Of a DNA stretch of 64,000 nt, positions 3,729-61,824 are shown piece by piece. Source of the DNA: Fibrobacterota bacterium. Its GTDB lineage: Bacteria; Fibrobacterota; Fibrobacteria; UBA11236. The stretch's first letter is position 1. Each line of letters begins with the position of its first letter. The translations under genes and the position numbers were made by a program. The notes under the pieces are model-generated. The model was not told the DNA's origin. It made no database searches and saw only the letters and a program-made list of their open reading frames with translations. The DNA lies in NCBI GenBank assembly GCA_947466585.1, contig CANIEU010000006.1:1-64000 (forward strand), read 5' to 3'.

Positions 3729-3733
3729 GCGCG

Positions 3734-5832: not shown

Positions 5833-6740
5833 GTGCCGAAAGACGTGCCGTCAGGAAATCGGGGTTCTCTACCCTATCCGCGGGCATACGCCTTGTGCGC
5901 CCTGCGCACTGGGTTAAAAACATTTTCGTTCTCGCGGGTATATTCTTCGCAGGAAAACTGTTCGATCTCGGCTTATTGATCAAGGTCGGCGGTGCCTTCG
6001 CCGCATTTTGCCTCGCCTCCGGCGCCGTCTATGCACTGAACGACCTGCTCGATCGCGAGGCCGATGCGCGCCATCCCCGCAAGCGCAATCGCCCCGTCGC
6101 CTCGGGTGCGATCGGGGTGCCTGTGGCCTTTGCGCTCGCATTGCTTTGCGGAGCAGGCGCCCTCGCCCTGTCTGCGGCATTGGGATACCGCCTACTCGCC
6201 ATCACCGCGTGTTACCTACTCATCAACATCGCCTATACGCGGTCTCTCAAACATGTGGTGCTCGTGGACGTATTCTGCATTGCGTCCGGCTTTCTGCTGC
6301 GCCTGCTGGCGGGCACATCGGGTGTCGGTATCCCGCCGTCGCAATGGTTCGTGCTCTGCACCTTTCTGCTGAGCCTGTTCCTCGGATTTTCGAAGCGCTA
6401 CGCCGAACGCATGGACGATACCCAGGATGCGGAATCGAAACGCGCGGTGGTCGATGAATACACGCCGGACTTTTTACGCATGCTGCTCGCGGTCACGCTG
6501 GCCTGCACCTTGATGACCTACGGCCTGTACACGATGAGCCCTCGCACGGTGGAGGTCCACCGTACGCAAGGGCTGATCTACACGCTGCCCTTCGCGGCCT
6601 TCGTAATGTTCCGGTATCTCTGGCTGGTGACGCGCCGCGGTTTCGGGGAGAACCTCGCCGGCGAATTGTTCCGCGACAAAGCGATGCTTTTCGGCATCGC
6701 GATTTACATCGCGTCGGCCGGCTTGCTGCTCTTCCGGTAG
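5829..6740 (+). CDS. UbiA-family polyprenyl-phosphate phosphoribosyltransferase (DPPR synthase-like)
   Basis: This is a 303-residue polytopic UbiA prenyltransferase. In the DPPR-synthase branch (Rv3806c type) it moves 5-phosphoribose from PRPP to a polyprenyl phosphate, giving the substrate that DprE1/DprE2 convert to the arabinose donor after dephosphorylation. RPAHWVKN and NDLLDREADARHPRKRNRP (the NDxxDxxxD metal site), followed later by SKRYAERMDD, are typical of that branch. The ATG at 5829 overlaps the preceding stop (ATGA). No phosphatase gene sits alongside, so a general phosphatase may act. The last 37 bases overlap the convergent glycosyltransferase. Confidence 0.82.
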   Translation: MSAERRAVRKSGFSTLSAGIRLVRPAHWVKNIFVLAGIFFAGKLFDLGLLIKVGGAFAAFCLASGAVYALNDLLDREADARHPRKRNRPVASGAIGVPVAFALALLCGAGALALSAALGYRLLAITACYLLINIAYTRSLKHVVLVDVFCIASGFLLRLLAGTSGVGIPPSQWFVLCTFLLSLFLGFSKRYAERMDDTQDAESKRAVVDEYTPDFLRMLLAVTLACTLMTYGLYTMSPRTVEVHRTQGLIYTLPFAAFVMFRYLWLVTRRGFGENLAGELFRDKAMLFGIAIYIASAGLLLFR

Positions 6741-7567
6741 AGCGCCTTCACCTTCGCCTGCACGAAGGCGCGGTAATTCTTGCTCTTCAGCAACCCGCGA
6801 ATCGCGTACGAGAGAAAATAAAAGACGGCGCGCGGCACCCCGAGCTTTTCTTCTTGCCGTAACACGACCCACTGGTAGAGTGATTTACGCAGCTTGCCGC
6901 GCGACAACGATCCCGGATGAATCCGGTAGCGGGCCAGCGCGTCGGGAAGGCCTACGGCATGCGGCGTGCGCTTTAACAGGTTGAGCCAAAGCGCATAATC
7001 CTCGCTTTGCAGAATGTCGGGCATGTACTGCTTGCCGAGCACATGACTGTCATACACGGTCGTCAGGCAACTGATGGTGCAGGAGTAGAGCAGTTCGGCA
7101 TGCGTTACGGTCGCGGGGGGTGTGATCGGGTTTCCGAACTCGAGGCCATGCTGATCGATGAGGCGGTAGCCGGTATGCGTGAACACCAGTCCCTGTGCGC
7201 GCATCGCGCCGATCTGCCGCTCGAGCTTTTCGGGCATCCACAGGTCGTCAGCATCGAGGAAGGCGATGTATCGGCCGCGCGCCTCCCCGATGGCGAGGTT
7301 GCGCGCAGGGCCCGGGCCCAACCGCTCGGTACGGGACAATATCCGAATGCGCGGCTCTTGCGCTGCGTAGCGTTCCGCGATGGCCAGCGTATCGTCGGTG
7401 GAAGCGGCGTTGACAATCAACAATTCCCAATCCGCAAAGGATTGCGCCATCACGCTCTGAATGGTTTGTTCGAGGTAACGCTCGGCATTGTAACACGGGG
7501 TGATCACGGAAACCGCGGGGCCAGAATGGTCGACGGCCCCTGAAGGTGCCGAGGAATTCACCACCAT
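6704..7567 (-). CDS. Family 2 glycosyltransferase
   Basis: This is a 287-residue GT2 enzyme with a GT-A fold: VSVITPCYNAERYL near residue 19 binds the nucleotide and FLDADDLW carries the metal-binding DxD. It should transfer a sugar from a nucleotide donor onto the growing lipid-linked repeat unit; donor and acceptor cannot be told. It is the last gene of the minus-strand glycan array. Its start overlaps the previous gene by 10 bases; a GTG at 7561 would give a four-base overlap like most other junctions in the array. Confidence 0.85.
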   Translation of the reverse strand: MVVNSSAPSGAVDHSGPAVSVITPCYNAERYLEQTIQSVMAQSFADWELLIVNAASTDDTLAIAERYAAQEPRIRILSRTERLGPGPARNLAIGEARGRYIAFLDADDLWMPEKLERQIGAMRAQGLVFTHTGYRLIDQHGLEFGNPITPPATVTHAELLYSCTISCLTTVYDSHVLGKQYMPDILQSEDYALWLNLLKRTPHAVGLPDALARYRIHPGSLSRGKLRKSLYQWVVLRQEEKLGVPRAVFYFLSYAIRGLLKSKNYRAFVQAKVKALYRKSSKPADAM

Positions 7568-8493
7568 ATTCTGCCTCCGTAGCGCCGGATGCGCGCGAAG
7601 GCGGTGGCCGAAAGCGGCCGCGCGGCGAATTGGGGTTCACGCCGCATTTTCAAAAACTCCGCCACGGCCCCGGCCACCATGCGCGCGTCGGGACAACGGA
7701 CGAAAATCTTGAGTGCCCAAACCGGAACGGAAAGCCAGCGGAAGAAGGCGGGAAGAAACCGGTGGTTCGTCAATAGGGTGTTGCGCAACAAGAGGAACCA
7801 TTTGCGTTTGTTCACGAGCCGACCTGCACCGGACTGCCAGTGCAAGACGCAGATTTCTGGATCATAGACGATGCGGTAACCCGACTCGATGAGGAGATAG
7901 CTGAGAAACAGTTCCTCCTGCGAGAAGAAAAATTCTTCGGGGTACAGGCCTCCCTGCAAGGCGCTTTTGCGCAAGGCGTGCCCGGCACCCACGAAATAGG
8001 ACGTCTCAAAACCTTCGTTGGGCGGCAGCTTTTTGTTCCAGTGCGGGAACTCGTTGGCGCGGATGCCCCCTTCCCCGTTCACGATCTTGAAGGCCATCGC
8101 GCCGAGAGTGGCATCCGCATGAAAGCGGGCCGAGATTTTTTCAAGCGGTTGTGCAGAGAGAAATTCAGCATCGTCATCAAGGAACACCAGGATTTCTCCG
8201 GTGGCTTTTTGGATACCCAGATTTCTGCCACCGGCCACACCGAGGTTGCGGTCCGCCCGGATGCAGCGCAACCCGGGCATCCTCTCTTCGAACTCTCGCA
8301 AGACCGCGGATGTGCCATCCGTGGAGGCGTTGTCGATCACAAGGATTTCAACTAAGTCCGGCACATGGCCCCGGAGCGCGGTCAGCGATTTACGTATATC
8401 CGCTTCGCGGTTGTATGTGATCAGGATGATACTGATCGCAGATGCGGTTTCATCGGTCGATGGGGCAGTTTGCGAATGCGGATTCGGATTCAC
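7558..8493 (-). CDS. Family 2 glycosyltransferase, rhamnosyltransferase-like
   Basis: This is a 311-residue GT2 protein with IILITYNREADI at the start of the GT-A fold, DNASTDGT, RNLGVAGGRNLG and the DxD region VFLDDDAEF. The layout resembles WbbL-like rhamnosyltransferases, but the donor is uncertain. The start is the GTG at 8493, whose GTGA overlaps the stop of the preceding gene; a longer in-frame ATG at 8535 would lie inside that gene. It belongs to the co-translated minus-strand array. Confidence 0.83.
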   Translation of the reverse strand: MNPNPHSQTAPSTDETASAISIILITYNREADIRKSLTALRGHVPDLVEILVIDNASTDGTSAVLREFEERMPGLRCIRADRNLGVAGGRNLGIQKATGEILVFLDDDAEFLSAQPLEKISARFHADATLGAMAFKIVNGEGGIRANEFPHWNKKLPPNEGFETSYFVGAGHALRKSALQGGLYPEEFFFSQEELFLSYLLIESGYRIVYDPEICVLHWQSGAGRLVNKRKWFLLLRNTLLTNHRFLPAFFRWLSVPVWALKIFVRCPDARMVAGAVAEFLKMRREPQFAARPLSATAFARIRRYGGRIWW

Positions 8494-9623
8494 GAAACAA
8501 GTTCCTTCATCAATCCCGCATAGCGATGGACGCAAACGGGGATGGTGTAGTTCAACGATTTCAAATGGGCTCCGCGGATCCGCTCGGGATCGGGCGCCTG
8601 CAAGGCGGAATGCACGGCGGTTGCAATTGCTTCCGCATCGCCCATCGGGCAGAGGGCACCAAGGGCGCCAGCATCGAGAAAATCACGGGGTCCCGAGGGG
8701 CAATCCGTAGCGACGATGGGAATGTCGAGGTAGGCGGCTTCCATCAAGACGTGGCCGGGATCCTCCCACAACGAGGTGAGGACGAAGACGTCCGCACGGA
8801 CCAGCCATTTATAGGGGTTTGTCACGAATCCGGCTAGAAGTACGTCGTTTTGCAAGCCAAGCGCCGCAATCTCCGCCTCAAGCCGGGCGCGATCCTCGCC
8901 TTCGCCCAGAATCACGAGGCGACTATGCGTTTGGGCGTGCACGCGCGCAAACGCCCGCACCAAGGTCGAAAAATCCTTTTGCCGGGTAAGGCGCCCGATC
9001 CCCATCAAAACCGGGCGATCCTTGGAATCGAGCCAAGCGTGTCCCGCGGGCTCGCGCGCGCTTTCCAGAATGCCTGCGTCGATCACCGGGTTGTCGATGC
9101 GGTGCAGACGCTCGGGAGAAATACCCTGCTTGAGCAACAGGTTCCGGGTGTTTTCAGTGAGTGGAATCACGGCTTCGCTGCGAAACTGCAAGTGCTTCCA
9201 CAGAAAGCGGCGGAAACGATTGAAGGTCGGTATGCCCTGCACGCTCAGTACCACCTTGGGGCGGTGGGGAGAAAACCGGAGCACCAGCATCGGCAGAAAC
9301 CCCAGGAGACAGACCAGCAGAATGTCGGGCTTGCGCCGCTGCAGATAAAACCACAAAACCGGAAAGGAAAAAAGCGCGAGCAGAGCCATGGAAACACGGT
9401 AACCGGCACCGTGCCGTGGCAGCCGCGGAAAGACGGCGGCGCCCCGAAAATCGACCAGACGGATGGAGTTTTCGGTGAGGAACGATTCGGCGCCCTGCCA
9501 TTCATCGCGCACACGGATCAGATCGACGTCGAACCCTTCGGAACGCAACCCCTTCGAAATATTCAAGACGGCACGAATGGTACCGATATGCCCCATGTAC
9601 GGGGACCAAACTGTCACCCGCAT
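8490..9623 (-). CDS. Family 4 glycosyltransferase
   Basis: This is a 377-residue GT-B fold retaining glycosyltransferase of family GT4. The C-terminal domain has MGIGRLTRQKDF, VILGEGEDR and the donor-binding segment LWEDPGHVLMEAAYLDIP. The sugar is unknown. The start is the ATG at 9623, preceded by a clear GGAGG four bases upstream. The reading frame stays open to 9893, but that leader is a degenerate 12-bp repeat plus the end of the preceding gene and is not credible protein. Confidence 0.87.
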   Translation of the reverse strand: MRVTVWSPYMGHIGTIRAVLNISKGLRSEGFDVDLIRVRDEWQGAESFLTENSIRLVDFRGAAVFPRLPRHGAGYRVSMALLALFSFPVLWFYLQRRKPDILLVCLLGFLPMLVLRFSPHRPKVVLSVQGIPTFNRFRRFLWKHLQFRSEAVIPLTENTRNLLLKQGISPERLHRIDNPVIDAGILESAREPAGHAWLDSKDRPVLMGIGRLTRQKDFSTLVRAFARVHAQTHSRLVILGEGEDRARLEAEIAALGLQNDVLLAGFVTNPYKWLVRADVFVLTSLWEDPGHVLMEAAYLDIPIVATDCPSGPRDFLDAGALGALCPMGDAEAIATAVHSALQAPDPERIRGAHLKSLNYTIPVCVHRYAGLMKELVS

Positions 9624-9637
9624 CGATCCTCCGGCTT

Positions 9638-9685
9638 CAGCAACACCGTCAACAAAACCGTCCGCAACACCTTCAGTGACACCGC
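9638..9685 (-). repeat. Degenerate 12-bp tandem repeat in an operon gap
   Basis: Four units of 12 bp (CAGCAACACCGT, CAACAAAACCGT, CCGCAACACCTT, CAGTGACACCGC on the + strand) fill half of the 94-base gap between two glycosyltransferase genes. Read on the minus strand in the downstream gene's frame they would spell a four-residue repeat of the G-V-x-D/E kind, but no start codon precedes them in that frame. Confidence 0.55.
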
Positions 9686-9717
9686 AACTCCTTCCAGATT
9701 CCGGGGGTGAACGGTCG

Positions 9718-10872
9718 TCATTGGCCCTCCATGCAAAGCAAATATGCCTTTGCGGCGGTGCGGGAATCAAACCGGTAGAGCCCGGACCGTGCGACTGATA
9801 ACAGGGCGCGCGCTTGGTCTGGGTTTTGGAGACTTTCCAAGATGCCGGCGGCCAATCGTTGGGGATCGCCGACTGGCACCAAGATGCCCCCACGCCCGTC
9901 GAGAAGGATCTCGCGGGGACCGCTCAGACAATCCGTGGAAACACAGGGTACACCGAGGGCCACGGCCTCGATGAGGGCATTGGGGAGGCCCTCAAACAGG
10001 GAGGAAAGCACGAACAGGTCTGCGCGGCGAACGAGGGCGTGCGGATTCTCCAGGAACCCGGGAAAGGCGATGTCCGCCTCCACCCCCAAGCTGCGTGTCA
10101 AAGCCTCCAGTGCGGTACGATCCGGCCCCTCTCCGAGGATGAGAAGCCTGCAGGGAATGTGGGCCCGCACGAGAGCGAATGCCCGGATCAGGGTCCCGAA
10201 ATCTTTTTGCGGAGCGAGCCGCCCCACCGCGATCACAAGCGCCCCTCCCGCTCCATTCAAAAAAGGGTGGGAAGCGTTCCCCATCTCGGCCTCTCCGGCT
10301 TCCAAAAGACCGGGATCAAAGGTCGGATTGTATAACACCCGAACCTGGGAAGGCGAAAGGCCGATGGTCTCGGCAAGGTCGCGCGCACCATCGCCCGCAT
10401 TTGCTGCGATGCGATCCGCCCAAGGATAGATCAGTCGCATCAACAGCAACAGAACGCGCCCTTTGAGGCGACCCGCGCCCAAGAGACCGGCATAGGTTCC
10501 GCGCTCGCGCGAGACGGCATTGCGCTCGGTCACGATTACCTTGGAAGGACGCCCCGCCAAAAGGTTCGCCATGACCGCGATGATGTTGGCGAAATTCTGT
10601 GCGCTGATCACCCAGTCCGGGCGGGTGCGGCGCAGGTGCAAGGCCAGCGGGATCAGGCTGGTAAGGGCGCGAGCAGCGGAAAGCCGCACGATCTTCGGCG
10701 CATCGGGACCCGAAGTGAAATGTTCGCTGTTTCCGAAAGTGGCCACCTCGGCCTGCACGCCGAGCGCGCGGAACTCGCGACTCAGGATGACCATGCCGCG
10801 CTCCACGCCTCCATCCCGGAAGTAGGGATGAAAAAACAGAACGCGACGTACGGATTTCGTCACGACTTCCAT
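9718..10872 (-). CDS. Family 4 glycosyltransferase
   Basis: This is a 384-residue GT-B, GT4-type enzyme. The N-terminal domain begins VRRVLFFHPYFRDGGVERG; the C-terminal domain has AVGRLAPQKDFGTL, LILGEGPDR and the donor-site signature FEGLPNALIEAVALGVP. The same signature occurs almost unchanged in the gene at 12262-13455, so the two may use related donors. The ATG at 10872 overlaps the previous gene by 13 bases; GTG 10863 would give the four-base GTGA overlap seen elsewhere. Confidence 0.87.
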   Translation of the reverse strand: MEVVTKSVRRVLFFHPYFRDGGVERGMVILSREFRALGVQAEVATFGNSEHFTSGPDAPKIVRLSAARALTSLIPLALHLRRTRPDWVISAQNFANIIAVMANLLAGRPSKVIVTERNAVSRERGTYAGLLGAGRLKGRVLLLLMRLIYPWADRIAANAGDGARDLAETIGLSPSQVRVLYNPTFDPGLLEAGEAEMGNASHPFLNGAGGALVIAVGRLAPQKDFGTLIRAFALVRAHIPCRLLILGEGPDRTALEALTRSLGVEADIAFPGFLENPHALVRRADLFVLSSLFEGLPNALIEAVALGVPCVSTDCLSGPREILLDGRGGILVPVGDPQRLAAGILESLQNPDQARALLSVARSGLYRFDSRTAAKAYLLCMEGQ

Positions 10873-11513
10873 GCCGGTTTATGAGCCGTGGAGAAATGTC
10901 CCAGGTAATAGGATGCGTTCCGACGGCGGAAATACGGAACGGAATCCAGGCTCCGGTCCAACACGGCACCCGCAACCGTGAAGGATGCGCGCAGCGGAGA
11001 CAAGAATCCCGGGAGCAGATCGCGGAGCACTGCGCAAAGCATGCCGCACACGCCGCCGAGTTTTTGTACCGTCACGGTTTCAAACCCGCGGCGTAGCAGG
11101 AGATCCCGCATCTCCTCGGCCGACCAACGGGAACGATCCGCGATGGGCCCGTGCGGCGTGTCTCCGTATAAAAAAGGCTCGAAGAGATAGAGTCGGCCCC
11201 CCGGTTTCAAAATGCGATACGCCTCCGAAAGGGCCTCCGGCGTTTCGGTTTCTCCGTTCAGATACATCGCCACCATCGAGATCAGAACGACATCCGCGGA
11301 TGCATCCTCCAACGGTGATTTGCCGGTGCGCAGGTCGAAGGGAAGGTCTCCCTCAAAACCAAGCGCGAGATAATGGCAGCCTTTGTCGCGGAACAGGCGG
11401 GCATGCCCCCCGTCCTTTTTGCCACCGAGTTCCACAACGGAGACGCCGCATTCATCGAGGCTGCGTAGGCGTTCCCAGGTGAGGCGGCGCAACAGACTTT
11501 GATCCTTCAGCAT
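10860..11513 (-). CDS. Class I SAM-dependent methyltransferase
   Basis: This is a 217-residue Rossmann-type methyltransferase: VVELGGKKDGGH stands where the SAM-binding loop is expected, followed by SADVVLISMVAMYL and RILKPGGRLYLFEPF, the motif IV/post-IV region of methyltransferase type 11. In this locus it may methylate a sugar of the glycan or its non-reducing end (inference). The ATG overlaps the deacetylase stop by seven bases (ATGCTGA), indicating coupling. Confidence 0.75.
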   Translation of the reverse strand: MLKDQSLLRRLTWERLRSLDECGVSVVELGGKKDGGHARLFRDKGCHYLALGFEGDLPFDLRTGKSPLEDASADVVLISMVAMYLNGETETPEALSEAYRILKPGGRLYLFEPFLYGDTPHGPIADRSRWSAEEMRDLLLRRGFETVTVQKLGGVCGMLCAVLRDLLPGFLSPLRASFTVAGAVLDRSLDSVPYFRRRNASYYLGHFSTAHKPAWKS

Positions 11514-12265
11514 CTGCCGGCCGCCTTTGCATAGAGCAAATACCCCTGCGTCAGGGTCGCCTCCAGAATCGATTCCGAAAACCGGCTGACCGGGATGCGC
11601 GGGATTTCAAAGGGGCGATCGACCCGGAACGCGCCGACGCGCGTGGTGACGGCGAGTCGATAGCCGCACGCGCGCACCAATTCGACGGTGCCCGGCGCGT
11701 AATCTCCGAACGGGTAGCAGAAGGTCTCCACGGGTTTTCCCAGCCAGTCTTCGAGTACCGCTTTCGAATCGCACAGTTCGCGCCGCTGCACCTCCGGATC
11801 AAGCCGCGACAGCTTGGGGTGCGACAGGGTATGCGAACCGATGGTGATGCCGGGCAGGGCGGCGAGTTCCCGCACATGGTCGCGCGACATCATCGGAAGC
11901 CCGCCTCGAAACGCGGGCGATCCCAGCGCATCCCAGGCGATGAAGATCGTCGCCGGAATGCCGCGTTCCACGCAAGCGGGAATCGCGCATTCGTAGTTGT
12001 CGAGATAGCCGTCGTCGAAGGTGACCGCCACCGCATCATCGGCAACGGGTTTCGATCTGGCCTGTTCTACCAATTCCAGCAGGCCTGATACGGTTTTGTG
12101 CGACCGAATCCATTCGAGATGCTGCAGAAAAGGGGCGCGTCCCACCCCGAAGGTCGGGCCGGGTTCTCCGACCGAATGATACATGAGGCAGGAAGGCGAA
12201 GGTTGCGGTCGCAACGCCGCCAGCATGCGGATCGCGGTACGACGCGCGGCGTTTCCCGCACTCAC
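11507..12265 (-). CDS. Polysaccharide deacetylase (NodB homology domain, CE4)
   Basis: This is a 252-residue carbohydrate esterase family 4 protein. The metal- and acid-binding motifs are in order: TFDDGYLDN (motif 1), SHTLSHPKL (motif 2, two metal histidines) and CYPFGDY (motif 3). It probably removes N- or O-acetyl groups from the glycan or a lipid-linked precursor. No signal peptide is seen, so it may act in the cytoplasm. The start is a GTG whose GTGA overlaps the stop of the preceding gene. Confidence 0.87.
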   Translation of the reverse strand: MSAGNAARRTAIRMLAALRPQPSPSCLMYHSVGEPGPTFGVGRAPFLQHLEWIRSHKTVSGLLELVEQARSKPVADDAVAVTFDDGYLDNYECAIPACVERGIPATIFIAWDALGSPAFRGGLPMMSRDHVRELAALPGITIGSHTLSHPKLSRLDPEVQRRELCDSKAVLEDWLGKPVETFCYPFGDYAPGTVELVRACGYRLAVTTRVGAFRVDRPFEIPRIPVSRFSESILEATLTQGYLLYAKAAGRC

Positions 12266-13455
12266 GGATTCACCCCGGGTTGCATGGATTGCAATATAAT
12301 CCCGGCATATTGACGGCCGATCGCCTCAGGATGAAAGCGGGCCAGCGCACCACCGGCCACGGCCGCCCGCCGACGGGCCTCTTCGGGATCGCCCAGCATT
12401 TCCGCAATGGCAACGGCGAGTCCCTCCGCATCGCCCACCGGCACGAGCCACCCGCCGCGGCCGTCGAGAAGGATCTCGCGCGGTCCGGTGGGGCAGTCCG
12501 TCGACACGGAAGGCACGCCGAGCGCGACGGCCTCCAGCAAGGCGTTGGGCAAGCCCTCGAACCGGGAGGTCAGCGCGAAGGCCTGCACGTGCTTCAGGAG
12601 CACATAGGGATTGGACGCATGCCCGTAGAATCGAACCGCATGCGCGATACCCAGGCTGGCGGCAAGGGCTATCAGGGTGGCGCGGTCTCGCCCCTCCCCC
12701 ACCACCAACAGGCGGGCGGAAAAATCGGGGCGGAGTTGTAACGCCCGCGCGAAGCCGCGCACCAGCGTGGCCACATCCTTTTCCCACGAGAGGCGTCCCA
12801 CGTAGGCAATGATGGGATCGCACGTCTCCAGAAATTCTTGCAAACCCGCATCTTCTCCGATGCCCATCACGGGTTGCGCCGCTTGGGCGCGCAGCCCTTC
12901 CGGATCCACGGGATTGTGTACCACGCGGACACGATCGGGCGGAAGGCCGGTGAGTACGCGTGCCGATTCCGCCGCACCGGAGGAATTCGCCACAACGAAG
13001 GCGCATGCCCGGTAGACCCATCCTTTTGCTTTAAGCACCACGGTGCGAATGATCCGTCGTTTCCACGAAGCACCTTGCTGCGATAGCGCCGTACGACTGT
13101 TCGAGCTTTCACGATGGATCACGGGAATGCCGAAGAGTGCGGCAATGGGAATGCACAACACCGAAGATTGTACGGTGAGAATGCAATCCGGACGGCGGCG
13201 GATCAGGTCAAGGACGAAACCGGGGAGCAGCGCGAACGCCGTCCGCGTTCTCCCGCCGGAGGCCGCAAATCGGTTCCGGGCACGCACCAACGTGACGCGG
13301 GGGTCGAACAAGGCGGCAATCTCGGCATTGCAACGCGCGCAATGCACCTCGATCTCGAATCCGCAATCGGCCAGCGCGGCGGTGATGCGGACCATCGCGC
13401 GTTCGAGGCCACCGGATTCCACCGAGGGAAAGAAAATGACGACGCGGGTGTTCAC
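12262..13455 (-). CDS. Family 4 glycosyltransferase
   Basis: This is a 397-residue GT4 enzyme with VVIFFPSVESGGLERAMV at the N-terminus, AYVGRLSWEKDVATL, LLVVGEGRDRATL and FEGLPNALLEAVALGVP in the donor domain. It is a close relative of the gene at 9718-10872. The reading frame extends far upstream without a stop, but the GTGA overlap with the methyltransferase stop places the start at GTG 13455 and gives a normal GT4 length. Confidence 0.87.
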   Translation of the reverse strand: MNTRVVIFFPSVESGGLERAMVRITAALADCGFEIEVHCARCNAEIAALFDPRVTLVRARNRFAASGGRTRTAFALLPGFVLDLIRRRPDCILTVQSSVLCIPIAALFGIPVIHRESSNSRTALSQQGASWKRRIIRTVVLKAKGWVYRACAFVVANSSGAAESARVLTGLPPDRVRVVHNPVDPEGLRAQAAQPVMGIGEDAGLQEFLETCDPIIAYVGRLSWEKDVATLVRGFARALQLRPDFSARLLVVGEGRDRATLIALAASLGIAHAVRFYGHASNPYVLLKHVQAFALTSRFEGLPNALLEAVALGVPSVSTDCPTGPREILLDGRGGWLVPVGDAEGLAVAIAEMLGDPEEARRRAAVAGGALARFHPEAIGRQYAGIILQSMQPGVNP

Positions 13456-14102
13456 GTCGATTTCAATCGGAAGCCAAGGCCTGCGGCAAAAAGGTTCGGC
13501 ATGGTACTTTGGGCCTTGCCCACCAATGCGCCCACCGCACCGTATGAATTTCCAGGATAGACGTGCGATTCCCGCACCACCTGCAACCCGTGGCGTCGAA
13601 AATAGGTCAGGAGCACGGTACGGTTGGTAAAGAACACATGCCCGCCGCGCCGGACCTTGTTTTGATACGGCACGCGACCCGTCAACATCTCCCACCGTTG
13701 TTTTAGGGAACTGAAGTTCGGCACTGCAATGACGGATTCGCGGGATGCGCTGCGTAGCCAATCGAAAAACGCATCCGGATCGAAGATGTGTTCGAGCACA
13801 TCGATGAGAACCGCAATGTCGACTTTTTCGGGGAATGCGGAAAACTCGCCCTGAAACGCTTGGATTCCGGCACGGCGGCAGGCCTCGCAAGCCTCCGCGC
13901 TTACGTCGATGGCGCGCAGGTCGGATGGTGGAAATCCGGCTTCGACCAACAGGTTCAAAAAGACACCGGGGCCGCATCCGAAATCACCGATCACCTTGCC
14001 CTTGTCCTCGTTTTGAAACAGGCGCAGTGCATTGAGGTGCTTCGTGTGCACCTCTTGCCCGCCGCTCCATCGCCGGTCCCAAAATTCGCCCATCGTGGCC
14101 AT
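13452..14102 (-). CDS. SAM-dependent methyltransferase (MetW-like fold)
   Basis: This is a 216-residue class I methyltransferase. The SAM loop is IGDFGCGPGVFLN near residue 38, and LIDVLEHIFDPDAFF is the usual motif IV region with the EH pair shared by MetW and UbiG-like enzymes. Its place among glycosyltransferases suggests a sugar methyltransferase rather than methionine synthesis (inference). GGAGG stands just upstream of the ATG at 14102. It ends in a GTGA overlap with the following glycosyltransferase. Confidence 0.78.
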   Translation of the reverse strand: MATMGEFWDRRWSGGQEVHTKHLNALRLFQNEDKGKVIGDFGCGPGVFLNLLVEAGFPPSDLRAIDVSAEACEACRRAGIQAFQGEFSAFPEKVDIAVLIDVLEHIFDPDAFFDWLRSASRESVIAVPNFSSLKQRWEMLTGRVPYQNKVRRGGHVFFTNRTVLLTYFRRHGLQVVRESHVYPGNSYGAVGALVGKAQSTMPNLFAAGLGFRLKST

Positions 14103-14131
14103 AAATCCTCCGCAACTGCTTCGGTGCTTGC

Positions 14132-15259
14132 CTAGTGTAAGATAGGCAAGATACGTTTCGCCCGCTGTTCCCAGGTATAGTCGCGCACCGCTTCAGCGCG
14201 TGCTGTGGCCCCCAGACGCGCACGCAAGGCCGCATCCGAAAGCCGACCCACCGCGCGCACCCATGCGTCCAGATCATCCGGATCGGCGAGCAACGCATTG
14301 CGGTCGTCTTCCAAAACCTCGCGCAACACGGGCAGGTCGGAACACAGAATGGCTTTTCCGGACGCCATATATTCGAACATTTTGAGGGGAGACATCCACT
14401 GCGCCACATCGCCGTAATTTCCACTTACCGCGACACGCCGTAAATACGGCATCAGCAGCACGTCCATCCTGGCAAGCGTCTCGGGAACGCGTTCGTTGGG
14501 TATGTGACCATGAAAGACCACATTCGCGGAAGGGCTTGCGGAATTCCGCCACCGTTCGATATCCGCGGGCGACCCGCCGAAAACATGATACTGATTCTGG
14601 GGATCCCGAAGCGCGAGCGCAAGGAGGATTTCCATTCCCTTGCCGGCATGTAGGCTCCCCACATAGCCGATCGAAAGCGGGGATCCGGAAGGCCCCGGTT
14701 CCGAAGGTGCGGAGTACAAACCGGCGTTAACCGCGTCATGCAAAACCCGGATCTTCGCTTCGGGAACGCCAAAATCGACAAAATATTTCCGGAGACTTTC
14801 GGAGATGACCACCAAACGGAGCAGGCGGGGATTGCGGAAAACCCCCAATCGATCGAGCAGGCGCGCCATGCGGCCCTCGCGAGACACTGGCCCGTGCAAT
14901 TCAAGCACGGTACGGATTCCGAGAATCGGGAAAACCACTCCGGCCCACAGATTGCGCGTGATGCACAGGTCCGGCCTACCCGTAAGACGCATCCACAAAC
15001 CCCAGGCCCCGACGTATACCAGATCGAGCCAGCCCTTGGGGTGCCAGCGCATCCAAGGCGTTTTGACGAGGCGGAAGGCGGCTGTAACGCCATAAAAAAC
15101 AAACGGTTCGGTAACCCCGAGGTCGCGCAGCCACTCGTTCGGAACGATCAAGGTCACCGCATGGCCTTCACCCGCCAAGGCTTCGCACATCTTCATGATG
15201 TGAACGCTGTTGGCAGAGCGCGAAGGAACGGAAGCGTTGGCGAAATAGAAGATCCTCAT
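14132..15259 (-). CDS. Family 4 glycosyltransferase
   Basis: This is a 375-residue GT-B glycosyltransferase. MRIFYFANASVPSRSANSVH opens the N-terminal domain, with IGYVGSLHAGKGMEILL and MSPLKMFEYMASGKAIL in the donor domain; the usual E-x7-E block is replaced by the LKMFEYMA form common in fucosyl/mannosyltransferase-like GT4 proteins. The start ATG overlaps the stop of the Wzz-Wzy fusion gene (ATGA). Confidence 0.85.
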   Translation of the reverse strand: MRIFYFANASVPSRSANSVHIMKMCEALAGEGHAVTLIVPNEWLRDLGVTEPFVFYGVTAAFRLVKTPWMRWHPKGWLDLVYVGAWGLWMRLTGRPDLCITRNLWAGVVFPILGIRTVLELHGPVSREGRMARLLDRLGVFRNPRLLRLVVISESLRKYFVDFGVPEAKIRVLHDAVNAGLYSAPSEPGPSGSPLSIGYVGSLHAGKGMEILLALALRDPQNQYHVFGGSPADIERWRNSASPSANVVFHGHIPNERVPETLARMDVLLMPYLRRVAVSGNYGDVAQWMSPLKMFEYMASGKAILCSDLPVLREVLEDDRNALLADPDDLDAWVRAVGRLSDAALRARLGATARAEAVRDYTWEQRAKRILPILH

Positions 15260-17442
15260 GCGGACTCTCCGTCGGCCCGAACCACGGCCTCGGCTGATGG
15301 AGCCCGATAGATGAGGCGCGCGAGAGCGAAGGCGTAGATGCCGAACGCCTTGGTAATCAAATGTTCCTTGGTTTCGATCATAAAAGCGATCAGCACCACC
15401 AGGGGAAGTACCCAATTGACCATCGTTTCTAAGGCGTGATACCGCAGAATGCGGCGCACGAAAAAACCGAGCATGCAGGTGTAATACAGGATGACTATCG
15501 GCAATCCGAGAGCGTAATACATTTGGACATAGGCGGAATCGTGTCGTCCATCAAATATCGAACGGAAAAACCCGGTTCCCAGGACGGTTTCAATCCGCAA
15601 TGCGGGCACCGGCATGTCCGAAAACTGCTGGATCGAGTTGGACTTCAGAAGCAGCATGAACGGTTCCTTGGCCCTGCGCACAATGCTGTTCAATCGCCAG
15701 TCGAGATCGGGGGAAATGAGAGACACGAGCAATCGGATTTGATCGAAATACAGAAAGAATAGGGCCAACAAAATAGTGACCACGATGATCACGGGAATCC
15801 GGATGCGGGAGCCCCCCGTCAGGGTGAAGGCCGCGACGAAAAGCATGGCGATCAACAGACCCGTTCGTCCCGACATAATGACAGAAATGACTGCAAGCAC
15901 GATGGTGAGGATGCACAATACGGCCACTCCCAGTTTCGGGCCGGCCCGCAGACGAATCAGGGATGAGATCACACCAAGGGATTGAACGACGGAAAAGGAA
16001 GCCGCGGCGCCGCTGGAAAAGCCCGGGGGGCTGGAGGCGTAGGCCAGATCCCAGTTTCCCGTCTGTTTCACAATACTCGCCAGCCAGATGCGGTAATCTT
16101 CCGAGAAAAAGCTGTAGATGTGTATGCCGGATTGAATCAAAACCACCCACATCACACAGGCGTGAAAACGGTTCCAGCTGTATCCGATCAACCTTAGATA
16201 GAGGTGGCTCGCGAGCAGCGGCGCATAGATGAATTCCGCAATGATCGATGTCGCATCCTTGTCACCTCCGAGCAGCATCAAGCCGGTCGAATACAAGAAC
16301 ACGGAGAACACGACTAGATAGGTTCCCAGGTTCTCATGGATGTCCTCGAACACCCAGATCAGCTTGTGGCGCAGCGCAACGAGAAAGAGGATCGTGACCG
16401 CCATGCGCGGAGTCGCGAACGAAGGAAGCACCTTGAAGGCGACGTTGTAAAAGATCATGAACAACAACAGAACGGCGAAGGGCGGCCAGATTCCCCGACC
16501 TGTCTCCCCTAAAGTTGCCGTACGGGCCGCTCCATCGGGTGCGCTCGCTTCATTTTCACTTCTACCAAGGGGCGCTCGCAAACCGAAATACAGCCCACGC
16601 GTCTTCGGATCACGGAAAACGAAAAACCACGTTCCGAGAATAGCGCCCAGTAGCAAGGAGAGCCCGAGCAGCATTTTCCGTTTGGGTTCTACCCGATGCT
16701 GAGGAATCGTCGGCTGCTGCCAAATTTCCGAAACGACAGGCCCGGCCGTGAGGGCCTTATCGTTCTCGACGGCGATCCGCGCCCTCAGCAGTTCACGCAA
16801 TTCCGGGTTTGAGGTGCGCACCAACTGGTCGGACAGCAGCCGTTCCGTCGCGCGCGCCTCCGCCCGTACCTTTTCCTGAAGACTAAACTCCGCCGCGCGA
16901 ACCACCGCACGGGCAACATCGCGCGCCAAGGTGGAATCCGCCGCCCGCGTCCAAAGGGTCACGCCGATCGGACCGTCTAAGGTCCGGATCAGGCGGACCC
17001 GCACCAATCGCCGGGCCATGTATTCTGCCGCCGCTTCCACGCTTGGTGGATGGGTGGGATCGAAATCCATGCCGGGTAAAAGTTCCGGACGCAACCCCTG
17101 TTCACGCACCACGTCTTCGAGTACCTCGCGGGTGGTCAGGAGTTTCAAAAAGTGTTCCATGCGAACAGATTTTTCCGCAACCCGGCCGATGGAATAGGAC
17201 GCATTTTTCGGGAGATCGGTTTTCACCGCCAGCACGGAGGTCGCTTCGTAGTATGTCGAGGCGGTGAGCCCGCGCCACAACCCCACGAGCCCGAAGGTCA
17301 ATACGATCAATGCCAGCGGGTAACGCTTCCGCCAGAGGAGACGGAACAATTCAAACGTGTCGGCGCCGATACGCGCGACCAAGCCCATGACCGGACCGAT
17401 GCGCACACCGTCTCCCGGCTTTCCCTCCACGTCGGATTTCAC
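15256..17442 (-). CDS. Fusion of a Wzz-like chain-length domain and a Wzy/O-antigen-ligase-like polymerase
   Basis: The 728-residue protein joins two parts normally made separately. Residues up to about 280 have the polysaccharide co-polymerase plan: a membrane helix near residues 42-59, a periplasmic, partly helical stretch with SIGRVAEKSVRMEHF and long charged helices, and a second helix (RKMLLGLSLLLGAILG). From about residue 315 to the end there are roughly ten further membrane segments with SGRTGLL, the conserved patch of O-antigen ligase/polymerase proteins, and a large extracytoplasmic loop. It probably polymerises repeat units while setting their length (inference). Start GTG 17442 makes a GTGA overlap with the preceding Wzz gene. 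Confidence 0.8.
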   Translation of the reverse strand: MKSDVEGKPGDGVRIGPVMGLVARIGADTFELFRLLWRKRYPLALIVLTFGLVGLWRGLTASTYYEATSVLAVKTDLPKNASYSIGRVAEKSVRMEHFLKLLTTREVLEDVVREQGLRPELLPGMDFDPTHPPSVEAAAEYMARRLVRVRLIRTLDGPIGVTLWTRAADSTLARDVARAVVRAAEFSLQEKVRAEARATERLLSDQLVRTSNPELRELLRARIAVENDKALTAGPVVSEIWQQPTIPQHRVEPKRKMLLGLSLLLGAILGTWFFVFRDPKTRGLYFGLRAPLGRSENEASAPDGAARTATLGETGRGIWPPFAVLLLFMIFYNVAFKVLPSFATPRMAVTILFLVALRHKLIWVFEDIHENLGTYLVVFSVFLYSTGLMLLGGDKDATSIIAEFIYAPLLASHLYLRLIGYSWNRFHACVMWVVLIQSGIHIYSFFSEDYRIWLASIVKQTGNWDLAYASSPPGFSSGAAASFSVVQSLGVISSLIRLRAGPKLGVAVLCILTIVLAVISVIMSGRTGLLIAMLFVAAFTLTGGSRIRIPVIIVVTILLALFFLYFDQIRLLVSLISPDLDWRLNSIVRRAKEPFMLLLKSNSIQQFSDMPVPALRIETVLGTGFFRSIFDGRHDSAYVQMYYALGLPIVILYYTCMLGFFVRRILRYHALETMVNWVLPLVVLIAFMIETKEHLITKAFGIYAFALARLIYRAPSAEAVVRADGESA

Positions 17443-18275
17443 GTGCGGGGTGCGCGGGGTGCCCGGGCTTCGGACCAGGCGCGCATCCAATCCTTCTGGT
17501 CACGAAGTAGAATCAAAACGAATCCCGATAGGGCGAGCCCTGCGAACAGGGAGACCAGTATCACCAAAATCCGGTTTGAAGAATCAGGTTTGAGTGGCCG
17601 CCGCAGATCTCCGACCACATCGAAGGCGCTGGCTCCCTGATACATGAAGTTTTCGAGCTGCGAAGCGATCAACTCCTGTAGTTTGTCGCGGAGCATCGGA
17701 TCCTGGGTCACTGCGAGTTGGGTTTCAAGGAATGCCACGTTCCGTTCCATGTCGATCCGGGCATCGTTGCGCATCTTCTCGTTGAGAACTTCGAGATACG
17801 AGCGCATCACTTTCAGCGAGAGGTCCGCTTGCCGGGTGGTAACCATGAGGCCGAGATAGGACTTGCCCCCGGAGGTTACGAGCATGGACTGGAGGGTCTG
17901 AGCCCCCTCGCGAGACGAAGGCGCGGGCTTGCGCCAATTCTTTTCATTCGCATCCCACAATTTGGGATAGAGAACAGGAAGCAAGGTGTCGCGGCGCACC
18001 ACCATTTCGGCGATTTCTTCACTGAGCACGATGAAGTCCATTTTTTCGATCAGTGTATTCTGGAACGGTCTCAGACTGATTCCGCTGATGGAGAAATTAC
18101 CTCCCCCTCGGCCCATGCCGGATTCTTTGGGAAAGACATTAACCTTGACGGTGTAGGCCGATGCCGAAAAAATGGCATAGAGAATCCCGAGAATCAGAAA
18201 CGGAAGCGCGCCCAACACCAGCCTTTTCCGGTTGGTCCACAAATACGCACCGTTTTTCAGAAGTTCTTCCCACAT
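17439..18275 (-). CDS. Wzz-like polysaccharide co-polymerase
   Basis: This is a 278-residue protein with two membrane helices, near residues 19-37 and 240-260, around a periplasmic domain, the PCP/Wzz topology. After the second helix only a short basic tail follows, so there is no tyrosine-kinase domain. FQNTLIEKMDFIVLSEEI and GLMVTTRQADLSLKVM fit the Wzz base and helical regions, though similarity is at the architecture level. It should regulate chain length together with the fused Wzz domain encoded immediately downstream. The end overlaps that gene by four bases. Confidence 0.75.
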   Translation of the reverse strand: MWEELLKNGAYLWTNRKRLVLGALPFLILGILYAIFSASAYTVKVNVFPKESGMGRGGGNFSISGISLRPFQNTLIEKMDFIVLSEEIAEMVVRRDTLLPVLYPKLWDANEKNWRKPAPSSREGAQTLQSMLVTSGGKSYLGLMVTTRQADLSLKVMRSYLEVLNEKMRNDARIDMERNVAFLETQLAVTQDPMLRDKLQELIASQLENFMYQGASAFDVVGDLRRPLKPDSSNRILVILVSLFAGLALSGFVLILLRDQKDWMRAWSEARAPRAPRT

Positions 18276-18304
18276 TCTTACCTACCGGTTTTTCGAAGTG
18301 AATC

Positions 18305-18364
18305 AAATCGTGCTTTGAATCGTGTTCTAGATCGCGCCATTAATCGCGCTTCAAATCGTGTTTT
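18305..18364 (-). repeat. Five-unit 12-bp tandem repeat at a gene end
   Basis: Five consecutive 12-bp units (AAATCGTGCTTT, GAATCGTGTTCT, AGATCGCGCCAT, TAATCGCGCTTC, AAATCGTGTTTT on the + strand) share ATCGYG at a fixed phase. The last units encode the C-terminus and stop codon of the glycosyltransferase at 18340-19482; the others fill the gap before the wzz-like gene. Confidence 0.75.
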
Positions 18365-21305: not shown

Positions 21306-23093
21306 TTAAACGATTTGTTGAAATCCCGCGTTGTGGGCGAGCAATTCCTGATAAGTTCCCTCGCCCGCGAGCCTTCCCTTTTCGATCAGGAACAAGCGGT
21401 CGCAGGCGCGGACCGTGGTCATGCGGTGCGCGACCATCACGATGGTGAGATTGCCCCGCAAACCTTCGATGGCTTCCACGAAATCCCGCTCCGTCGCATT
21501 GTCGAGCGCGGAGGTCGCCTCGTCGAGAACCAGAATGGAAGGGGATGCATACAGTGCTCGCGCGATGCCCACGCGCTGCCGTTGCCCGCCCGAAATGCGA
21601 ACGCCGCGTTCTCCCACCCGGGTATGAATCCCGGAGGGCAGCGACCGGACCAGGTCCTCAAGTTGCGCATCCCGGATGGCGGCCTCGAGTCTGCCTGCAT
21701 CCACTTCCGACTCGGGAATCCCCAGGGCGATGTTCTGCCCCAATGTTGAATCGGTCAGAAAAATGTTTTGCGGCACATAGCCGATGCGGGAGCGCCAGGC
21801 GGGAAGTCCCGCAAAAATATCCCCGCCCTCGGCGAGAATACGGCCCGACTGCGGCTCAAGCAACCCGAGAAGCAGATCGACGATCGTAGTTTTCCCCGAT
21901 CCCGAGGGTCCCACGAATCCGGTCACCTCTCCGCGACGGATGTCGAGACTGAGATCCCGCACCGACGGCGTCGCTGCCCCCGGATAGGTGTAGGAAACGT
22001 CGCGGAACGCAATCGCGACATCCGCGGGCGTCTCTTCGGCGGGCATGGACTCGCCGTCCGTGCCGCTGGAAGCCTGGTTCAGTGTCAAGTCCGCATGGAT
22101 GCGCTCCACCGAGCCCGCGGAAAAACGCAACGTGTTCCAGGCGAACATAAATTCGTTGAGCGCCGGCATCAGGCGGATCGCCGCGATCCCGAAAAGGCTG
22201 AGAAAGGAAACGATCTCGGCGGTGTTGCGGCCTTGCGCATGAAAGACCAGCGCCATGACCAACAATCCGGTGACCGCGCAGGTCTCTATCACCGGTTTGA
22301 CCGCCGTGGCCATCACTTGCTTGAAGATCTGGCCGCGCGCATAGGCGCGCCCCGCCGCCGTGAAAGCGTCCACGAACCAGCCTTCGCGCCCGAGGATACG
22401 AATGTCCTTCAGGCCGCCCAAACCTTCCTGAACGGCCTGAATCATCGCCTTGCGGGCCTTGCGGGACTGCATTCCGTGATAGGTCACCCGCTGCCTAAGT
22501 ACCCGCAAAGACAACCCGGCCACAGATCCCAGAAACACCAGCGCGAAAGTGGTCACGCGGGGATCGGCCCAAAACAAAAGTGCCGCGATGCCGAGAATGA
22601 GCACAGCATTCATCACCAAGCGGAGCAGGGATTCGAGCACCTCTTTGGAAACGATGTAGGCTTCCTGGGTGGCGTTGCGCACCAGTTCGGCGCTGTTGCG
22701 GCCAAGATGAAAGGTGTAAGGCGCCCGCATGTAACCGGAAAACACTTTTTCGCCCAGATCGTTGAAGACTTTATGGACGAAACGGGCGAACTCGAGGTTG
22801 TAATAAACCGAGTAGGCGTTCTTCACCAAAAAAATAAGGATTAGCAGTACCGCACCATAAACCAGCAAGTCGCCGGAACTCTGAATATGCAAAGCCGAGA
22901 GCACGGGCCCGAGCAACGGGCTCTCCAAGGCCTTCGCAGGCGTGGCCACGACCACCACAAATGCCGGAATGACACCGACTCCGACGACTTCCAAGGCCGC
23001 GGAAACCAGCATCATCAAAAACAAAACCGCCATCCGCGCCTTGTCGCGCGCGGAGAGCAATTCCATGGTCCTGCCCAACGAAGCGCGCAGCAT
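21306..23093 (-). CDS. ABC exporter (MsbA/PglK-like), candidate glycan flippase
   Basis: This is a 595-residue half transporter: about six membrane helices in the first 330 residues, then one ATPase domain with Walker A GPSGSGKTT, signature ISGGQRQRVGIARAL, Walker B ILVLDEATSAL and an H-loop in VAHRM. Two copies should form an exporter. No Wzx gene is present in the window, so this protein could flip the lipid-linked repeat unit as PglK does (inference from context); an exporter for another substrate is possible. It starts six bases after the stop of the export-protein gene. Confidence 0.85.
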   Translation of the reverse strand: MLRASLGRTMELLSARDKARMAVLFLMMLVSAALEVVGVGVIPAFVVVVATPAKALESPLLGPVLSALHIQSSGDLLVYGAVLLILIFLVKNAYSVYYNLEFARFVHKVFNDLGEKVFSGYMRAPYTFHLGRNSAELVRNATQEAYIVSKEVLESLLRLVMNAVLILGIAALLFWADPRVTTFALVFLGSVAGLSLRVLRQRVTYHGMQSRKARKAMIQAVQEGLGGLKDIRILGREGWFVDAFTAAGRAYARGQIFKQVMATAVKPVIETCAVTGLLVMALVFHAQGRNTAEIVSFLSLFGIAAIRLMPALNEFMFAWNTLRFSAGSVERIHADLTLNQASSGTDGESMPAEETPADVAIAFRDVSYTYPGAATPSVRDLSLDIRRGEVTGFVGPSGSGKTTIVDLLLGLLEPQSGRILAEGGDIFAGLPAWRSRIGYVPQNIFLTDSTLGQNIALGIPESEVDAGRLEAAIRDAQLEDLVRSLPSGIHTRVGERGVRISGGQRQRVGIARALYASPSILVLDEATSALDNATERDFVEAIEGLRGNLTIVMVAHRMTTVRACDRLFLIEKGRLAGEGTYQELLAHNAGFQQIV

Positions 23094-23098
23094 GGGAC

Positions 23099-25849
23099 TC
23101 AGTAGAGCGCTACGATGACGCCGGCGGTGACCGCGATTTGGAAAAGGACTTGCGTGATTTGCGCCACAGCCGCAAGGTAATCGCGCGCCGGCAACTTCGG
23201 AGGCACCACGATGGAACCGCCCGGTTCCACCGGATATCCCTTGAAGGTGCGATACCACGGCGTCGTAGCGGGAGAAACCACCGAGCCGTCGGGAGCGATG
23301 TAGAACGTGTGACGATAATCTCCAAAATCGTTCACGCCGCCGGCCTTGGAAAGCACTTCGCCGATGGTATTGGTTTTGGAAGTGAAGATGACGTTGGTGG
23401 GCGAATAAACTTCGCCGAGCACCGAAAGCGTGCTCGGGAAATGACTGACCGTCACGTTATCTCCGTTTTCAAGCACGATGTCCCAGTCCGTTCCGGCGAA
23501 TTTGTAACTGCGGTCGAGACGCATGAGAATGCGGCCGAGATAGGGGGCACGGCGGATTTCGTCCACCAAGGCGCGCCGACGCTCGAGCGCTCCCGAAATT
23601 AAGGCCCGATCCGTTTCAGCGACCGTTTGCTGCAAGCGACCCTGCAGCTGATCTTCGAGCCGGCGTCCAATCTCCTCGGCATGCCTCAATTGCTGGGCGC
23701 GCACGCTCTCGCGCAAAAAGACCAGCGCCGGCAGATAGGCGTCCTTGGTAAAACCGCCCGCACGACGGACCACGCTGCTCAGGCGCTCGCCAGGAACGAA
23801 TTCATACGTCCCCGGGAAATTAAACTCTCCGCCCAAGGTGATCTGCGAGCTCTCACCCGACTTTACCACGGCGCGGACATACACGGCATCGCCATCTTCC
23901 AGCGCGAACTCTGCCTTGCCCTCGAGGATATCCTTCAGGCGCATCACCTTCACAGAGCGAGTCATCACGCTGTCGTCGACGATCTTCCGCCGCACCACTT
24001 CCACATTGAGTTTGAAGCTGTTCTTGGTCAGGCCACCGGCGCTCATCACCAGTTCACGCACGCCGAGACCTTCGGATAGGTTAAACGTGCCGGGATGATT
24101 CACCGCACCGTAAATCCCCACGCTGGAAACCAGCACATAGTCGCCGCGCGAAAACACCTTGAGTTCATCGAAGGGCTTGAGTTCGAGATTCTCGGGGCCG
24201 CGCGGATTTTCGAGAACCTTGCCCAACTTCACCTTGATCAGGCGCGAATACACCGAATCTCCGTTCGGGCTGTATTCCACGCGTACCAAATGCGCCTGCC
24301 CCAAATGGGCATCACCCAATCCGCCCGCCAGAATGACCAGATCGGAAATCGCCATCGCATCGCGGAAATCATAATCCGCGGGGCGCCGCACGGCACCGCT
24401 GATCCGGACGCTGGGCCGCGAAGTGATCTGATAGCGGTTGTAAAACACCACCGTGTCGCCGGGTTGCAATGGAACCTTGGCACCTTTGGTGAAAACATCG
24501 GCGGGAGAAAAGCTGAGCAAGGTGGGACGTTCGTCATCGGGAGACGGGCGCTTGATATGTCCGTATTCGAAAAAGGTTTCGCCCTTCAAATCTTTGATGG
24601 TGGGAACCAGATCCCGAACCGTCATGCCCGGCTTATATTGGAAGCTTCCCGGGCGATTCACGTTTCCGGTCAGATATACCGCATCGTCGAGCTTGTCGAG
24701 CAGGCGGTCTACAAACAGAATGTCGCCGTCCTGGATGTTGACGTTCGACTTGCCTTCCGCCTTTTCCATATCGACATCGAGCACCACGTAACGTTTGTTA
24801 CCCTGCACGCGATCGACGCGCACTCTGCCCTTTTGGGCGTTCGGCAACAGCCCGCCGGCGAGTTCGACCGCCTCAAGCGCTTTCAGCGAGCCTTTGATTT
24901 CGTAAATCGCCGGACGTTTCACCATGCCCACGACCGCCACCTGCGTCTTGGCCAAGGGAACGAAGATCGCATCTCCCGGAAGCAACTGGATATCACCCTT
25001 GTTGCTTCCCTTGATCAACAGGTCATAAATATCCAACACCGAAATCGTTTTGCCGCCACGACGCAGCTCGATGAAGCGCAGCGAACCGATTGAAGTGATC
25101 CCGCCGCTGCGGAACAGTGCCGAAGTGATCGTCGCCCCCGCCGGAATCACGAAGGATCCCGGACGGGAAACCTCGCCCAGCACCAAAATGCGAATGCTTT
25201 TCAGTCGACCGAGACTGACGGAGGCGGTGACACCCTGGATCTTTTGAATTTCCCGCGTCAGCAATTCCTGAGCAGTGGCAAAGCGCAGGCCCGAAATGCG
25301 GATCGGGGGTAGCGGAGGGAAATGAACCATGCCCTCGTTATCGACGACCACCGTCTGGTTGCCGCTTTCGCGTCCCCAGGTGGAAATCTGGATCTCATCT
25401 CCTGTAGACAGGATGTATTCCGGCAGTGCGGGCGCGTTCGCACCCAACCCGGTGACATCGGTGTTCTGGAAAAACGATTCTCCGAAGCGCGACATCCATT
25501 TAGGAAATCGAAAACCCTGCGCACGGGCACCCGACCCGCCGACGGTGCGCTTTTCACCGGAACGCGACGACCAATCTTCATCCAACTCCTCGCCGGAGAC
25601 CGCGGGAGGAAGTTGGACATCTTCCGCCTTCTGCTTCTCGGCGAGGATGCGCTTTTGGATTTCTTGATTGGAAACGTCCTTCAAATCCGGAAATTTGGCC
25701 TTGGCGACCTCGATCATTTCGGGAGTCACCTGCGTGCCCGACTGAACAGCCTTGATGGCTTCCTGCACCTGCTGCGGATCCGGGGACTGCGCCCCAGCAC
25801 TGAGGAGGCAGAGGGTCAGTGACGCAGCAAAAAAGAAGGTTTTCCGCAT
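23099..25849 (-). CDS. Large SLBB-domain polysaccharide export protein (Wza/OPX-like)
   Basis: The 916-residue protein has a signal peptide (KTFFFAASLTLCLLSAGA) and then a polysaccharide-export domain around residues 140-225 (YILSTGDEIQISTWG). A series of about six SLBB modules follows, recognisable from repeats of the form VxGxVxRPGxF, e.g. VLGEVSRPGSF, LTGNVNRPGSF, ISGAVRRPADY and IYGAVNHPGTF. Wza itself is about 380 residues; such long multi-SLBB versions occur in FCB-group bacteria (family knowledge). The last 20 residues form a membrane helix. It should build the periplasm-to-surface channel for the polymer made by this locus. Confidence 0.88.
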   Translation of the reverse strand: MRKTFFFAASLTLCLLSAGAQSPDPQQVQEAIKAVQSGTQVTPEMIEVAKAKFPDLKDVSNQEIQKRILAEKQKAEDVQLPPAVSGEELDEDWSSRSGEKRTVGGSGARAQGFRFPKWMSRFGESFFQNTDVTGLGANAPALPEYILSTGDEIQISTWGRESGNQTVVVDNEGMVHFPPLPPIRISGLRFATAQELLTREIQKIQGVTASVSLGRLKSIRILVLGEVSRPGSFVIPAGATITSALFRSGGITSIGSLRFIELRRGGKTISVLDIYDLLIKGSNKGDIQLLPGDAIFVPLAKTQVAVVGMVKRPAIYEIKGSLKALEAVELAGGLLPNAQKGRVRVDRVQGNKRYVVLDVDMEKAEGKSNVNIQDGDILFVDRLLDKLDDAVYLTGNVNRPGSFQYKPGMTVRDLVPTIKDLKGETFFEYGHIKRPSPDDERPTLLSFSPADVFTKGAKVPLQPGDTVVFYNRYQITSRPSVRISGAVRRPADYDFRDAMAISDLVILAGGLGDAHLGQAHLVRVEYSPNGDSVYSRLIKVKLGKVLENPRGPENLELKPFDELKVFSRGDYVLVSSVGIYGAVNHPGTFNLSEGLGVRELVMSAGGLTKNSFKLNVEVVRRKIVDDSVMTRSVKVMRLKDILEGKAEFALEDGDAVYVRAVVKSGESSQITLGGEFNFPGTYEFVPGERLSSVVRRAGGFTKDAYLPALVFLRESVRAQQLRHAEEIGRRLEDQLQGRLQQTVAETDRALISGALERRRALVDEIRRAPYLGRILMRLDRSYKFAGTDWDIVLENGDNVTVSHFPSTLSVLGEVYSPTNVIFTSKTNTIGEVLSKAGGVNDFGDYRHTFYIAPDGSVVSPATTPWYRTFKGYPVEPGGSIVVPPKLPARDYLAAVAQITQVLFQIAVTAGVIVALY

Positions 25850-40610: not shown

Positions 40611-40677
40611 CGGTAGTAGGTAGAGAACATGATGGACAAAACCCTGTTCCAAACTAACGTCTAACGTCTACCTACTT
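40611..40677. repeat. Inverted heptamer element C
   Basis: Left arm 40611-40628 has units of TAGTAGG/TAGAGAA type; 16 bases (40613-40628) equal bases 31475-31490 of element A exactly. Right arm 40653-40677: ACTAACG, TCTAACG, TCTACCT, ACTTTCA. The spacer is 24 bases. The right arm contains the stop of the MNIO gene. Confidence 0.75.
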
Positions 40678-41527: not shown

Positions 41528-41660
41528 GCTGACAAAACTACTTGATTCCCCTTCGTTCAAGGCGGGTGCCGGAAAGCGGATTTCCTTTTATGACAATCAC
41601 TTAACTCTACTAATCCGGAATATTCAAATCCTTTCAATAATTTCCCTTCTCAAACATTTA

Positions 41661-61728: not shown

Positions 61729-61824
61729 ATTCGTACCGATATTCGTACTCCTACTCGTACGCGTACTCGTACTCGAATTAAAAACCGCAGCGAGTACGAG
61801 TAGGAGTACGAAGTACGAGTACGA
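61729..61824 (+). repeat. Inverted hexamer element G, hairpin next to a start codon
   Basis: Left arm (61729-61776) has 6-bp units CGTACT, CCTACT, CGTACG, CGTACT, CGTACT. Right arm (61791-61824) has CGAGTA, CGAGTA, GGAGTA and further GTACGA. The arms can form a stem of about 30 pairs with a 14-base loop, ending at the ATG of the Omp85-like gene. Confidence 0.8.

Follow-up and report, generated by a model that had tools for sequence, protein, structure and literature searches.

The window analysed here (a stretch of 64,000 nucleotides from a Fibrobacterota bacterium, contig CANIEU010000006.1) contains a single open reading frame whose N-half is of the Wzz type and whose C-half is of the Wzy type. 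This frame is probably a natural fusion of a Wzz-type co-polymerase and a Wzy-type polymerase, located in a Wzy-dependent cluster for a surface or extracellular polysaccharide, and it is likely that one protein is made from it in the living cell. The identity of the two parts is well supported. The frame and its parts are as follows:

15256..17442, minus strand: fused wzz-wzy open frame of 728 codons, with no internal stop; the only full-length match in its own genome is itself
16603..17442, minus strand: Wzz part, codons 1-280, with TM1 (~43-61), a periplasmic domain, a Pro-rich stretch and TM2 (~258-276) (PF02706, profile relatives, hydropathy)
16492..16602, minus strand: cytoplasmic linker, codons 281-317 (about 30-40 residues), partly without typical coding signal (codon statistics, frame stops)
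15259..16491, minus strand: Wzy-type polymerase part, codons 318-728 (~410 residues), with at least nine helices (homologues at L054:9992-11269 and L057:1432-2742; hhalign to Wzy_C proteins)
15859..15873, minus strand: SGRTG motif in the polymerase part, with R and T conserved across all three homologues (alignments)
15529..15543, minus strand: HDSAY motif in the polymerase part, with D and Y conserved across all three homologues (alignments)

The frame opens with GTG at 17442 (with TTG at 17490, a possible in-frame start further upstream, the length would be 744 aa). The unbroken frame of 728 codons given in a preliminary description of this DNA was confirmed, on the minus strand, which that description had left unstated. 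It is not a chance open frame, since its N-half passes the Pfam Wzz cut-off and its C-half has full-length stand-alone homologues.

The N-half matches the Pfam Wzz family (PF02706) over residues 29-114 of the fusion with a marginal score (26.3 bits against a cut-off of 25.5; 9.3e-6), and Pfam also returns a weak GNVR match. Hydropathy places two helices within residues 1-280, and the layout is that of the PCP-1 type: two membrane helices flanking a periplasmic domain, with a Pro-rich stretch before TM2 (hydropathy and a tail alignment with 26 relatives). The two-helix co-polymerase proposed beforehand is thus borne out by the PF02706 score, the hydropathy and the stand-alone relatives described below, supporting a co-polymerase of the PCP-1 type predicted to form a ring oligomer and to control chain length. 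The PCP-2a co-polymerases (Wzc) are likewise single proteins of ~700 aa in which a Wzz domain is followed by a long C-terminal extension. Their extension is a cytoplasmic kinase, whereas that of the fusion is a multi-helix membrane polymerase; Pfam found no kinase family in the fusion and the C-half is polytopic, so that the C-terminal kinase of the PCP-2a proteins was not found.

The C-half has at least nine helices from residue ~318 on in a simple hydropathy scan, against the 10-14 published for Wzy polymerases, which are polytopic (PMC12004945). Searches of Pfam, NCBIfam and PDB sequences gave no useful match to it, including no direct match to Pfam Wzy_C (PF04932), a family that at E 0.001 matched nothing anywhere in the genome of the window. 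Its best homologue is a stand-alone protein of 425 aa from Anaerovirgula multivorans (L054:9992-11269), 27% identical over query residues 8-415 (E 2e-27), that is, nearly the whole C-half, with the motifs in common. Unlike the fusion, this protein stands alone; its cluster also encodes a Wzx-type flippase (PF01943), and adjacent genes resemble those of glycosyltransferases. It was found by a motif-steered scan of genome contigs, using short peptide patterns directed at SGRTG and HDSAY; in the alignments that steered these patterns all rows except that of the window were script-made and are not evidence, and the match was confirmed with the real window protein. A second, more distant homologue, also stand-alone, is present in G177 (L057:1432-2742, 436 aa).

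When the C-half and the Anaerovirgula row were compared by hhalign with the Wzy_C proteins of the phylum, a probability of 91% was obtained over 356 columns (score 54.6), against 31.2 (11%) for reversed columns, below 20 for block shuffles, 21.7 for a Wzx profile and 12.2 for an NADH-dehydrogenase profile, the last two control profiles being thin. The C-half of the window alone gave 3%, and the Wzy_C assignment therefore leans on the Anaerovirgula homologue. In these alignments SGRTG and HDSAY fall onto the SxSR and HNxxL regions of Wzy_C, respectively. Of the O-antigen polymerase/ligase-like identity proposed in the preliminary description, the stand-alone homologues and the Wzy_C profile match stand, while the direct PF04932 match does not; together they support a complete Wzy-type polymerase with predicted activity. 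No relative of the C-half was found in its own phylum or among the plasmids and viral contigs searched; those weak matches within the phylum that were inspected were rejected as unrelated proteins or shadow frames. Outside the phylum, the scans consisted of short peptide patterns and of a sample of genomes from the class and order to which Anaerovirgula belongs. AlphaFold2 models were too low in confidence for use (pLDDT 42 for the fusion from its single sequence and 41 for the C-half with one homologue), as was Foldseek on the latter.

The surrounding genes of the cluster are as follows:

17439..18275, minus strand: free Wzz-like protein of 278 aa, whose stop overlaps the fusion start (PF02706 4.2e-4, 21.0 bits, below the 25.5 cut-off)
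21306..23258, minus strand: MsbA/PglK-type ABC exporter, which probably acts as the flippase of the pathway (PF00005, PF00664; 308.6 bits for MsbA and 296.9 bits for PglK, each below its model cut-off)
23099..25849, minus strand: Wza-like outer-membrane export protein with several SLBB domains (PF02563 1.1e-13; SLBB 2.1e-53, 7 stretches)
26497..27786, minus strand: WecA-like initiating sugar-phosphate transferase (PF00953 4.6e-33; ECA_wecA 121.8 bits, below the cut-off)
6704..15415, minus strand: glycosyltransferases, methyltransferases and a polysaccharide deacetylase, 3' of the fusion on the same strand (domain searches)

No Wzx-type flippase was seen among the window genes scanned, and the ABC exporter occupies the place expected for one. 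In G008, a genome of the same family, an ORF of 888 aa (probably the export protein, by size and place), a Wzz and an ABC exporter lie in a row, with a sub-cut-off Wzy_C protein further on; the same arrangement being found there, an ABC exporter would seem to be a usual component of the cluster. Positions 3701-6740 (plus strand) hold genes that resemble DprE1, DprE2 and decaprenyl-phosphate phosphoribosyltransferase, a set known in actinobacteria from the synthesis of the arabinose donor; G003 also seems, by eye, to have ORFs similar to this set next to Wzz (L006). Other observations in the window were: a methyltransferase gene (13452-14102, minus strand) overlapping the over-extended start of the glycosyltransferase ORF at 12262-13977, whose true start probably lies ~180 codons downstream; a member of the MbnB/TglH/ChrH family, whose enzymes modify RiPPs (40661-41560, minus strand); and an ORF of 589 aa without a Pfam match at 0.001 (61824-63593, plus strand).

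The phylum was surveyed with a Wzz profile made from the Wzz half of the fusion, the upstream gene and a protein of G003, searched against 168 genomes; the survey is a sample from the best matches listed and not a full census. About two dozen close Wzz matches among those listed are stand-alone frames of roughly 280-380 aa, and the only long frame among the strong matches listed is that of the window (747 aa). Wzz frames of ~700 aa were rejected as Wzy fusions: in about 20 judgeable loci of 30 they have only 1-3 helices, which makes them Wzc-like. Six more Wzz frames (three of them of 589-1074 aa) showed no polytopic extension, and none of 13 long Wzy_C frames of the phylum carries a Wzz domain. 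The fusion is therefore unique among the matches examined, Wzz relatives standing alone and long Wzy_C frames being without Wzz; the search for the same fusion in related genomes, suggested in the preliminary description, gave no second case among the matches listed. Nor was a natural Wzz-Wzy fusion found described in the literature searched, which consisted mostly of papers available without subscription.

The closest unfused gene order is that of G167, in the same phylum, where wzz (L096:8093-9070) and wzy (L096:6819-8090; PF04932 2.2e-16) are separate genes 2 bp apart, adjoining an ORF of 971 aa that is Wza-like by eye; its Wzy is a standard PF04932 protein, unlike that of the window. In G003, G091 and G092 the gene directly after a Wzz encodes a polytopic protein that Pfam does not name, a pairing made by position only. 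A second Wzz copy on contig C23 of G003 (L006:4328-5136) is split over two frames, being a pseudogene or an assembly error.

These gene orders bear on the first alternative, that adjacent ordinary wzz and wzy genes were merged, in the assembly or in the strain, when the linker changed slightly in length. The preliminary description held that relatives with two genes would imply such an error; adjacent genes do exist, clearly in G167 and by position in the other three genomes, but none of these pairs is orthologous to the halves of the fusion, so that a junction error is made more plausible and not proven. By codon statistics derived from the neighbouring genes, the fused frame is supported as far as ~codon 288 and once more from ~320 on, whereas in codons ~289-318 the frame signal is lost and another frame is favoured (minimum of -7.2 log units in a 25-codon window). 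Only 0.05% of null windows are as low, and the sole null gene reaching that level does so at a trimmed start. Such a loss of signal would be expected of a linker derived from former intergenic DNA, and also of a length error where two genes meet; both alternative frames carry stops in or near the stretch. Against a merger, the conserved genes inspected in the window are intact, which argues against frequent sequence errors; the fused frame has neither ATG nor GTG between codons 258 and 328 with which a separate polymerase could begin; and one-change splits tried by hand led to sizeable overlaps or weak starts. We regard a merger of two genes as unlikely, yet as the strongest competitor of the natural fusion.

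A real fusion in which the Wzz part is a degenerate remnant, only the free Wzz works and the gene amounts to a plain Wzy with a passive anchor seems very improbable. The two Wzz-type domains in tandem are 26% identical, the free Wzz also being one of the profile sequences, and the Pfam score of the fused one is marginal, but the latter retains TM1, the periplasmic domain, the Pro-rich stretch and TM2, with a normal coding signal up to TM2. Least probable of all is that the C-half acts not as a chain polymerase but as a ligase, or as some other enzyme for lipid-linked glycans within the same superfamily: Wzy_C spans polymerases and O-antigen ligases (the Pfam description reads 'O-Antigen ligase') and sequence alone does not tell them apart, but this half is physically joined to Wzz, a regulator of polymerisation, the genome has no other PF04932 protein and the Wza-like exporter of the cluster points to an exported chain.

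For the natural fusion, the neighbouring free Wzz has consequences for stoichiometry. The fusion GTG overlaps the TGA stop of this gene (17441-17439) as GTGA, which suggests coupled translation. Just upstream of the free Wzz gene (18300-18360, minus strand) imperfect CACGATT-like repeats are visible by eye, although a tandem repeat program reported none. In the WzzE-WzyE complex of the enterobacterial common antigen of Pectobacterium, a Wzz-type co-polymerase is likewise physically paired with a Wzy-type polymerase, at a ratio of ~8 Wzz to 1 Wzy and with Wzy among the membrane helices of the ring (PMC10030265); these are two separate proteins, whereas in the window they are covalently joined and a second, free Wzz lies upstream. 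The idea that the fusion fixes the stoichiometry is doubtful in view of this free Wzz and of the published ratio: a 1:1 fusion alone mismatches ~8:1, whereas a ring mostly of free Wzz with one fused subunit would match. More likely, the fusion supplies a minority subunit of the ring.

A mechanism can be proposed tentatively on this basis, in which a tethered polymerase sits in a mixed Wzz ring completed by the separately encoded Wzz, placing one polymerase per ring. Lipid-linked units would probably be flipped by the PglK/MsbA-like ABC exporter, and we infer that the fused Wzz part would join a ring with free Wzz from the directly upstream gene. The linker, of ~40 residues, is predicted to stay cytoplasmic because an even number of helices precedes it, which suits the N-terminus of Wzy; it may hold the Wzy part among the membrane helices of the ring. 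The polymerase would thereby be delivered together with its own chain-length regulator, and the Wza-like protein would serve as the exit for the product.

Every relative examined has Wzz and Wzy apart, so that the frame either represents a natural fusion of a rare kind or results from an error at the junction. If it were a junction error, the locus would be a polysaccharide cluster of the ordinary sort, its Wzy being very divergent. If true, the fusion would bear on how Wzz and Wzy contact one another and on how a ring of regulators comes to be paired with one polymerase, the published complex being of low resolution. It would mean that the C-terminus of Wzz and the N-terminus of Wzy can sit close together on the cytoplasmic side, and a covalent link made in nature would provide cryo-EM with a ready construct.
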